This document shows, one piece after another, positions 3,908 to 38,246 of a DNA stretch of 38,246 bases (position 1 is its first letter; each line of letters opens with the position of its first letter). The DNA lies in NCBI GenBank assembly GCA_029560585.1, contig JAKQKQ010000001.1, forward strand, positions 1-38,246, given 5' to 3'. Origin of the DNA: Verrucomicrobiota bacterium. Its GTDB lineage: Bacteria; Verrucomicrobiota; Verrucomicrobiia; JADLBR01. Below the pieces are notes generated by a model. That model was given only the letters and a program-made list of their open reading frames with translations. It was not told the DNA's origin and did not search any database. The position numbers and the translations under genes are program-made.

Positions 3908-4106
3908 AGCCCGGAATTTCACAGCCTGCCGGCTGTGAAATTCCGGGCTCTGGGAAAACCGCGCCATGAAAGCCATTTATTGGGAGAGGTCGGGCAATGA
4001 CTGGGTTTTTTCGCGGTTGCGGAGTGTGTCTCGCGGACTGGTGGCCCCAGACCCTTCAAAGTCGCGTTCTTCGGAGCGCGGTTTTCCTTTGAGCCTGCTT
4101 GCAGGC
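3908..4106 (+). repeat. Dispersed hairpin-flanked repeat, copy A
   Basis: Begins with a perfect 19-bp hairpin, AGCCCGGAATTTCACAGCC (3908-3926), loop TGCC, complementary arm 3931-3949. It is followed by GGAAAACCGCGC (3953-3964), whose exact inverse GCGCGGTTTTCC lies at 4076-4087. The right end is a short hairpin GCCTGC-TT-GCAGGC (4093-4106). The same element occurs at 20435-20658 (inverted) and from 38108 to the window end. The segment 4040-4098 (59 nt) is identical to copy B. No transposase and no obvious target-site duplication were seen. It could be a MITE-like element, a REP-type element or a structured RNA. Confidence 0.9.
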
Positions 4107-18942: not shown

Positions 18943-18997
18943 TGCCTTGTCCCGTTTGGTTCTAACCCATTCGCCGGAAGGGCCCGTGGCTTGAGGC

Positions 18998-19171
18998 TGT
19001 CTCAAAACTCAAACGCCCAACACGGAACACCCAACAATCAATGCCCATCTGATGATAGGGGGGACTTCCAATGGTGTGCGGCGCGCGACAACGCACGGCA
19101 TCTCACAGAGATGCCCTACAAAATTTGTAGGCCGCCTGTGCCAGGCGGCGCGGTTCAGAGGTTTTGAGACA
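18998..19171. repeat. Hairpin cluster bounded by 11-bp inverted repeats
   Basis: TGTCTCAAAAC (18998-19008) and its exact inverse GTTTTGAGACA (19161-19171) enclose three back-to-back perfect hairpins: GGCATCTC-ACA-GAGATGCC (19097-19115), CCTACAAA-A-TTTGTAGG (19115-19131) and GCCGCCTG-TGC-CAGGCGGC (19131-19149), each sharing one base with the next. No open reading frame fits. The architecture is that of a small non-autonomous mobile element or a REP/BIME-type structure. Confidence 0.7.
19003..19046 (-). repeat. Degenerate TTG-rich repeat, copy 1
   Basis: On the minus strand this reads GATGGGCATTGATTGTTGGG..., a run of imperfect 8-10 nt TTG/GTT units. A similar stretch beginning with GATGGGC follows at 31056-31097. 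It lies inside the hairpin cluster element. Confidence 0.4.
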
Positions 19172-19213
19172 CGCTCGTCTCGCGGGCCGGGTTTGCCCCG
19201 GTGCCGCGGGGCT

Positions 19214-19248
19214 GGTGGATCGCTGACGCCGAGGCCGGCGTCTCTCCC
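19214..19248 (+). repeat. Short hairpin repeat GGTGGATCGC...GGCGTC, copy 1
   Basis: GGTGGATCGC is followed by a GACGCC/GGCGTC hairpin and CTCTCCC. The same sequence with few differences is present inverted at 37978-38012. Both copies lie in intergenic space next to other repeats. Confidence 0.6.
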
Positions 19249-20434: not shown

Positions 20435-20658
20435 AGCCTGCATATTTCACGCTTCCGCGTGAAATATGCAGGCTCAAAGGAAAACCGCGCTCCGAAGAAC
20501 GCGACTTTGAAGGGTCTGGGGCCACCGGTCTGCGAAACACACCCCGCAATCGCGAAAAACCCAGTCTTTGCCTGACCTTTCCCAATAAATGGCTTTCACG
20601 GCGCGGTTTTCCCAGAGCCCGGAATTTCACAGCCGGCAGGCTGTGAAATATCTGGGCT
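20435..20658 (-). repeat. Dispersed hairpin-flanked repeat, copy B (complete, inverted)
   Basis: This 224-bp copy shows the full architecture. Its right-end hairpin is a perfect 18-bp stem (20435-20452 with 20457-20474, loop TTCC), its 12-bp internal inverted repeats are GGAAAACCGCGC (20479-20490) and GCGCGGTTTTCC (20601-20612), and its left-end hairpin (20616-20634 with 20639-20658) is nearly perfect. Compared with copy A the central part differs at about ten positions including a one-base deletion in a T-run, while the 59 nt next to the right hairpin are identical. Confidence 0.9.
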
Positions 20659-20700
20659 AAGCCCGGCCGCCCGGGTCGCGGCACACCCAGGGCACGCCCC

Positions 20701-37849: not shown

Positions 37850-38107
37850 CCCACCCTCCCCAGGGCCAGCGCGGCCCACGCCATGGGTTTGTTTCTCATA
37901 CCCAGAATCTTCCATAGCCCACCCCAGATTCCAATCGCCCATGACAACACCGCCCGCCACACCATCGCGATGGGCGCGGGAGGGACGCCGGCCCCGGCGT
38001 CCGCGATCCACCCGCGCACGTTGATCTCGCTTCCGTCGCCCTTGCGGCCCGCGAGGCCGCGGACCCTCCCGGTGGGGACTCGCGACGCGGACCCGTTTCT
38101 TCCCGCT
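37850..38107. other. Intergenic space before repeat copy C
   Basis: 258 bp upstream of thiD. It contains the second copy of the GGTGGATCGC hairpin repeat. No gene or clear promoter is seen. Confidence 0.4.
37978..38012 (-). repeat. Short hairpin repeat GGTGGATCGC...GGCGTC, copy 2
   Basis: Read on the minus strand it is GGTGGATCGCGGACGCCGGG followed by GCCGGCGTCCCTCCC; the GGACGCCGG/CCGGCGTCC stem is perfect here (37983-38001). Matches 19214-19248. Confidence 0.6.
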
Positions 38108-38246
38108 AGCCCGGATATTTCACAGCCTGTCGGCTGTGAAATTCCGGGCTCTGGGAAAACCGCGCCATGAAAGCCATTTATTGGGAAAGGTCAGGCAAAG
38201 ACTGGGTCTTTTCGCGGTTGCGGAGTGTGTTTCGCGGACCGGTGGC
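38108..38246 (+). repeat. Dispersed hairpin-flanked repeat, copy C (cut by window end)
   Basis: Left hairpin 38108-38127 with 38132-38150 (loop TGTC, one-base bulge), then TGGGAAAACCGCGCC and the conserved core up to the last base of the window. Same orientation as copy A. In the core it shares some bases with copy B (AAAGG, TCAGGCAAAGAC, GGACCGG-like end) and others with copy A (ATGAAAGCC, TCGCGGTTGCGGAG). Confidence 0.9.

Follow-up and report, generated by a model that had tools for sequence, protein, structure and literature searches.

Two insertion sequences (ISs) of the IS1182 family, IS1272 and TnSha1, attack stem-loops (PMC5678879, PMC4923244). As described in parts of these two sources, both delete the stem-loop and produce no target duplication; IS1272 may also replace the stem-loop and has no sequence preference. 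In a possible pathway drawn in PMC5678879, the element is joined on the 5' side of the loop, and the loop is duplicated. A fixed insertion point has also been described for ISs that target REPs, namely, ISPsy8, ISRm22, ISPpu9, IS1397, and IS621; as presented in part of PMC1525189, REP-targeting ISs are full ISs from families IS3, IS110, IS4, IS256, and IS5, and ISPsy8 and ISRm22 insert at the REP symmetry axis with a short direct repeat. GTAG beside a palindrome marks one REP super-family, which has been reported from Verrucomicrobia (Opitutus terrae) (PMC3733652), and the name REPIN is used for REPs paired in inverted orientation (PMC3116915). Bacterial MITEs such as RUP, NEMIS, ERIC, and Nezha are 70 to 300 bp long, with terminal inverted repeats (TIRs) and without coding capacity (PMC3733652). 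Prior work covers hairpin-directed IS1182 insertion, REP-targeting ISs, MITEs, and REP doublets one by one. Our literature search, with most subscription journals outside its scope, found no paper that joins these four in the way that they are joined in the element described here.

The locus lies in a 38,246-nucleotide stretch of DNA (the window) from the genome of a Verrucomicrobiota bacterium (G000; 7.06 Mb, a draft of 336 contigs). The original prediction was of three chained perfect hairpins lying inside 11-bp terminal inverted repeats, with stems of 8, 8, and 8 bp that share single junction bases. Our stem search returned this same chain, the shared bases being positions 19115 and 19131. 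Both repeats are also present exactly, with TGTCTCAAAAC at 18998-19008 and its exact complement at 19161-19171, but the ends reach 5 bp further on each side (GAG-NN) than had been proposed. We refer to the element as M1, and its parts are as follows.

18993-19176, plus strand: M1, probably a complete nonautonomous transposon, 184 bp, from GAG to CTC (41 complete copies compared)
18993-19008, plus strand: left TIR, GAG-GC-TGTCTCAAAAC (GAGNNTGTCTCAAAAC has 116 matches versus 125 for the 11-mer)
19161-19176, minus strand: right TIR, GAG-CG-TGTCTCAAAAC as read on the minus strand (from the sequence and the compared copies)
19097-19115, minus strand: hairpin 1, GGCATCTC-ACA-GAGATGCC, stem of 8 bp and loop of 3; read as REP-like, the GTAG head lying on the minus strand (stem search)
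19115-19131, no strand assigned: hairpin 2, CCTACAAA-A-TTTGTAGG, stem of 8 bp and loop of 1; two facing GTAG heads paired with each other (stem search)
19131-19149, plus strand: hairpin 3, GCCGCCTG-TGC-CAGGCGGC, stem of 8 bp and loop of 3; read as REP-like, the GTAG head lying on the plus strand (stem search)

Allowing up to one mismatch, TGTCTCAAAAC has two matches in the whole window versus 0.21 expected. The 11-mer end occurs 125 times in G000, and the same word read backwards occurs 0 times. GAG precedes the left 11-mer in 37 of the 41 complete copies, and CTC succeeds the right 11-mer in 36 of them. Because GAGNNTGTCTCAAAAC matches 116 times, we take the M1 end to be the 16-bp GAG-NN-TGTCTCAAAAC and the unit to span 18993-19176.

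The density of palindromes had been judged to be far beyond chance, and chance hairpins could indeed be rejected: a chain of three appeared in 0 of 60 windows simulated with the window's dinucleotide frequencies, and a chain of two appeared once. When folded as DNA, the M1 stretch had a z score of -5.5, with 0 of 200 shuffles equally stable; folded as RNA, it had a z score of -5.3. In the alignment of the 41 copies, every cell of hairpin 3 that holds letters is paired. One A-T pair of hairpin 1 is replaced by G-C on both sides in 7 of the 41 copies, possibly as one inherited event, and the other hairpin pairs of M1 gave no compensatory support in these copies. The heads that pair in hairpin 2 are CTAC (19116-19119) and GTAG (19127-19130). 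GTAG stands directly beside the palindrome in two units that are inverted relative to each other (19097-19149), and in this respect the M1 doublet is like a REP/REPIN (compare parts of PMC3733652 and PMC3116915). Unlike a REP/REPIN, the doublet is cargo between IS1182-type TIRs, and a simple scan around RAYT-type genes found no link to a RAYT.

Eight open reading frames (ORFs) of at least 20 amino acids overlap 18993-19176. One, of 22 amino acids, lies wholly inside, and another, of 58 amino acids, nearly fills M1, starting at a TTG two bases outside it. Since one base is lost (173 bp) in 5 of the 41 copies, no long frame is kept, in line with the earlier description of an element without a gene. 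M1 is short (184 bp), multicopy (41 complete copies), bounded by 16-bp TIRs, and free of genes, as are MITEs such as RUP, NEMIS, ERIC, and Nezha. It differs from these four in that it inserts mainly in a REP-like loop and carries a REP-like doublet as cargo.

A genome search for further copies showed a discrete, TIR-bounded, multicopy element, with far more than a second copy. The 174 bp that the 11-bp repeats bound, repeats included, gave at least 40 matches in G000 with identities of 94 to 100%, these figures being for the best 40 of 146 first-look candidates, a few of them cut by contig ends. The DNA retrieved from G000 holds 53 distinct M1 left ends. For the comparison of copies, 41 of 79 distinct matches were counted as complete, with at least 15 nucleotides (nt) on both sides; the rest were shortened, at contig edges, or partly retrieved. 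The 41 complete copies have a mean column identity of 94%. They are 41 distinct sequences with differing flanks, and duplication during assembly could be rejected as their source. M1 is also not the 224-bp repeat of the window, from which it had been called distinct: matches between the two are only 9 to 10 bp long. The idea of exchangeable hairpin modules fared less evenly. In all 41 complete copies the three hairpins occur as an unbroken set, so those of M1 are not freely exchangeable, but shorter elements with the same ends (L020, L105, and L107) combine a similar trio with another left part. Contigs of G000 (e.g., C17, C19, C41, C42, C43, and C223) break inside M1 copies, which may conceal the real number of copies as well as an autonomous partner, if there is one.

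A full M1 copy was absent from the 56 related genomes searched. G040 has a match of 26 bp, and a congener (G001) has the hairpin core alone (locus L009; 88% identity over 58 bp), with no M1-type end found within 1.5 kb of it. Scanning a collection of genome contigs with the hairpin core gave 0 matches, in a scan that may leave out near records. The window's own M1 lies between two convergent genes, one for a DUF2721 protein and one for a WYL/WCX-domain regulator. Gene neighbors were assigned for 40 of the 41 copies with a crude ORF caller, on which we do not build: 21 were tandem, 12 "inside," 5 convergent, and 2 divergent. Eleven of the "inside" ORFs have 96 to 171 amino acids and a GC3 of 0.58 to 0.70; the twelfth, at L094, has 352 amino acids and a GC3 of 0.73.

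Most copies of M1, in either orientation, interrupt another repeated palindrome, H1 (GGGAGGGCCCGCG-GCCT-CGCGGGCC), within its 4-nt loop. This enclosing hairpin target, together with the 16-bp ends, the 4-bp loop duplication, and the REP-like reading, had been missed in the original prediction. In the window, the target and its unoccupied counterpart are laid out as follows.

18989-18992, plus strand: left copy of the duplicated loop, GCTT (consensus GCCT; one base off)
19177-19180, plus strand: right copy of the duplicated loop, GTCT (consensus GCCT; one base off)
18981-18988, plus strand: left arm of the split H1, GGCCCGTG (arm pairing across copies)
19181-19188, plus strand: right arm of the split H1, CGCGGGCC (arm pairing across copies)
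18977-19248, no strand assigned: host palindrome pair of the GGGAGGG...CCCTCCC type, consisting of H1 split by M1 and a further palindrome, H2 (read by eye against other copies)
37978-38070, no strand assigned: unoccupied host palindrome pair, with H2 at 37983-38002 and H1 with an intact AGGC loop at 38048-38063 (H1 with up to one mismatch)

The core of the H2 next to the split H1 is GACGCCG-AGGC-CGGCGTC, at 19225-19242. On its own, the short pattern GGGAGGGNCG has one match in the window versus 2.1 expected, which is chance level. In the genome, unoccupied H1 cores (CCCGCG-GCCT-CGCGGG, up to one mismatch) number 113, versus 1 for the reversed-pattern control.

In 35 of the 41 copies, the H1 arms flanking M1 are complementary at no fewer than 7 of their 8 positions. 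An exact 4-bp direct repeat, as expected of a MITE target-site duplication, flanks 29 of the 41, and repeats of 2, 3, 5, 6, or 7 bp flank none. When left and right loops were shuffled among copies, 15.1 identical pairs were expected versus the 29 observed, and 0 of 10,000 shuffles reached that number, although hairpin orientation accounts for most of this excess. Among the 28 copies that share one orientation, loops are identical in 20 versus 16.6 expected (P = 0.02). Identical loops that depart from the consensus were seen in 2 of these 28 copies (GCCC in L049 and GTCT in L080) versus 0.36 expected (P = 0.04). The insertions look independent, since similarity between M1 copies does not track similarity between their flanks (Mantel r = 0.008 and 0.024; P = 0.46 and 0.41; 40 of the 41 copies, with 80-nt flanks required). 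The same near-zero correlation rejects flanks that were mobilized together with M1. The similarities of left and right flanks are correlated with each other (r = 0.19; P = 0.03).

The exact 4-bp repeat is missing from 12 of the 41 copies, the window's own among them, and L068 and L094 have arms derived from two different hairpins. We ascribe the copies without an exact repeat, apart from those with inverted loop copies, to decay and recombination. Tobes and Pareja likewise ascribed the hybrid repeats of ISRm22 to recombination between copies (part of PMC1525189). Inverted rather than direct loop copies (GCCT/AGGC) were seen at L118 (G000:C243) and L078 (G000:C256); at L118, the inversion extends over the entire flanking arms, each being the inverted repeat of the other.

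M1 resembles several systems in part. Like IS1272 and TnSha1, it belongs by its ends with the IS1182 family, for which the inverted repeats have been modeled as 16 bp, and its insertion goes by stem-loop structure (parts of PMC5678879 and PMC4923244). Unlike IS1272, M1 does not replace the stem-loop: in most copies the arms are kept and the 4-nt loop is duplicated, one repeat family is strongly preferred, and no transposase is encoded. The fixed insertion point is shared with the REP-targeting ISs, and we liken M1 in particular to ISPsy8 and ISRm22, given their position at the symmetry axis and their short direct repeat (part of PMC1525189). M1 differs from all of these full ISs in being a MITE with IS1182-type ends that itself bears REP-like hairpins.

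Next to the question of where M1 lands stands that of what moves it. G000 has 12 stretches matching IS1182-family transposases, and 2 loci score above the NF033551 cutoff. The ends of its complete IS1182 copy, GAGTC/GAGAC-TGTCGAAAAAC, differ from those of M1 at 2 of 11 end bases, and no clean loop duplication was seen at this copy. Among the IS1182 and DDE_Tnp_1 loci of G000 that were inspected, an end scan of 10 loci, with two mismatches allowed, found no transposase gene bearing TGTCTCAAAAC ends. As an observation apart, an IS1182-family gene at L163 (G000:C213) lies between 21-bp ends (CTAGCAGCCTGTCGGACTTTG) that are 95% complementary and 1.6 kb apart, with CTAG outermost; these represent another end type of the IS1182 family in G000.

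The near match in G000 is matched by an exact 16-bp end, GAGAC-TGTCTCAAAAC, in two relatives, G039 and G015. An open frame follows 38 to 39 bases in, and its start is near-identical in the two genomes (MASLIAPDYGQQFLLPPALEDWV in G039 and MAQPIAPDYGQQFLFPPALEDWV in G015). In G039, the NF033551 (IS1182) model matches the frame start (E = 4e-6; model positions 3 to 39 of 488). In G015, the model had no match at the end itself and matched only elsewhere, so the IS1182 link there depends on the similarity of the protein start. The IS1182 copies of these relatives run into contig edges, so a single end is visible and no full IS element was recovered from either genome. Flanks of 30 nt that match exactly indicate that G015 and G039 correspond to the MAGs JACRKA (Verrucomicrobia bacterium) and CAIQCK (uncultured bacterium), which makes the organism of the window, a member of the same class, verrucomicrobial. 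Searching 4 genomes for a guessed form of the unoccupied hairpin of these IS1182 copies, probably with too strict a pattern, gave no match, and a local hairpin scan of 76 kb of G015 and G039 DNA found no unoccupied target. Because the guessed hairpin was not found, we make no claim of loop targeting by the IS1182 of G015 and G039. Since related Verrucomicrobia have the same ends ahead of an IS1182-family transposase start, an IS1182-type MITE is the best reading of M1. M1 itself encodes no IS1182 DDE transposase and, having no gene, can only be a nonautonomous derivative of the family.

Judged from its sequence, M1 is probably a MITE with IS1182-type ends that is moved in trans into hairpin loops, with duplication of the loop. 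Across the copies compared, it appears as one 184-bp unit, placed mostly at the very same point, the 4-nt apex loop, and in both orientations, with the loop duplicated, the hairpin arms left on either side, and unoccupied targets common. A trans-acting IS1182-family DDE transposase would recognize the palindrome, which is probably extruded as a cruciform or single-stranded hairpin. Joining of the element's 3' ends would take place on the 5' side of both loops, with the loop then duplicated by repair. The flanks of M1 are those that the pathway drawn in PMC5678879 predicts. The cargo would be a head-to-head pair of GTAG-tagged REP-like hairpins, for which RNA stabilization or termination, or RAYT binding, are candidate effects.

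Three other explanations deserve mention. The GTAG doublet might be the real mobile unit, having captured IS1182-like ends secondarily and with the TIR element as its passenger. This reading is partly compatible with the one above and draws on the related doublet of the sister species, which has no such ends within 1.5 kb (L009), and on the shorter same-end elements that bear a similar doublet. We nevertheless find it unlikely, as in G000 both the duplication and the choice of target follow the TIR ends, and same-end elements with other cargo also lie in hairpin loops.

Quite unlikely in our view is that a RAYT (tyrosine) transposase moves M1 together with the hairpin arms as a single REPIN-like unit, M1 being the long loop of a REP hairpin. 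G000 does have six Y1_Tnp (RAYT-type) matches, and the inner hairpins bear GTAG heads while the host hairpins begin with GGGAGG; GGAG can be a REP head. Against such a unit stand the lack of correlation between M1 and flank similarity, the occurrence of M1 in both orientations, and the 4-bp duplication and the ends common with IS1182, which indicate a DDE transposase. In the five RAYT neighborhoods, a simple scan turned up only a single host hairpin pair and a single further GTAG stem, and L131 holds both. No GTAG-hairpin array was found in the 4 to 13 kb around RAYT-type genes when near-perfect GTAG/GGAG stems were sought, a search that would miss imperfect REPs.

Finally, the strong fold (as DNA and as RNA), the compensated pair in 7 of 41 copies, and the convergent genes around the window's copy would suit a conserved structured RNA or a bidirectional terminator with a cellular function and no mobility, but this is very unlikely given that no full-length copy occurs among the 56 relatives, that the copies are as similar as after recent spread (94%), that convergent ORFs flank only 5 of 40 copies (crude caller), that Rfam at the gathering score gave 0 matches in the window, and that the compensated pair may be one inherited event.

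Besides this IS1182-type MITE, further elements share its ends. The retrieved DNA contains 164 distinct ends (up to one mismatch), in a census limited to ends more than 25 nt from the near edge and more than 50 nt from the far edge of their retrieved piece, with hairpin arms assigned at up to 2 mismatches. M1 left ends lie in H1 in 44 of 53 cases and in H2 (GGACGCCG-NNNN-CGGCGTCC) in 4, with 5 assigned to neither. Right ends, including those of M1-like elements, are distributed similarly (H1, 48 of 56; H2, 3; neither, 5). The ends of other cargo types (F2, F3, and F4) lie mostly in H2 (19 of 24; H1, 1; neither, 4). Four ends of short M1-like elements divide into one in H1, two in H2, and one in neither. 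A mixed remainder of 27 ends, among them chance matches and a small number of M1 ends that the rules missed, has 9 in H1, 10 in H2, and 8 in neither. H2 sites number 154 in G000 (control, 4) and 47 in G001 (control, 0) and are at control level in G015 and G039.

Some of these elements are nested. An outer pair of ends encloses M1 in 3 of 40 copies (300 nt required on each side), with outer 4-mers GGGC/GGGC, GCCG/GCCG, and GCAC/GCCC, and 9 further copies have an outer end on one side only. No M1-type end was found inside M1 in these 40 copies. The enclosing ends indicate that palindromes carried inside one element can host another, here in a few outer elements and not in M1's own hairpins; palindromes carried by one same-end element may in this way serve another as a landing site. 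Tentatively, and with more doubt than belief, we suggest that IS1182-type MITEs and palindromic repeats breed each other: loop-duplicating landings, carried hairpins as the next sites, and nested stacks would add up to a target supply that enlarges itself and spares genes. Same-end elements could stay out of genes because their targets are repeated palindromes that look extragenic.

M1 offers dozens of natural, loop-duplicating, hairpin-directed insertions of an element with IS1182-type ends in a single genome, and it makes directly testable how IS1182-type transposases read DNA structure. It also links MITEs and REPs, repeat classes that are usually treated apart, and shows how one repeat class can feed on another.

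MITEs with the same ends in G015, which belongs to the same class and another family, carry an unrelated GTAG-tagged pair whose heads point outward, opposite to those of M1 (L184 and L196). Two G015 copies have both ends; L184 is flanked by the 4-bp repeat GGCG and L196 by inverted copies. The GTAG pair of L196 is AACGGATG-TCCA-CATCCGTT plus AACGGGCT-GCCA-AGCCCGTT. Elements of about 200 bp with M1-type ends and other cargo, containing GCGGCAGT..ACTGCCGC hairpins, were seen at L112 (G000:C170) and L182 (G001:C325) and are present in both species of the genus. The window also contains a second, unrelated repeat, present three times and in both orientations (3916-4098, 20468-20659, and 38107-38246, the third copy being cut by the window end). 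Its copies are 94 to 96% alike where compared and bear a hairpin of at least 11 bp of the type TTTCACAGCC..GGCTGTGAAA.
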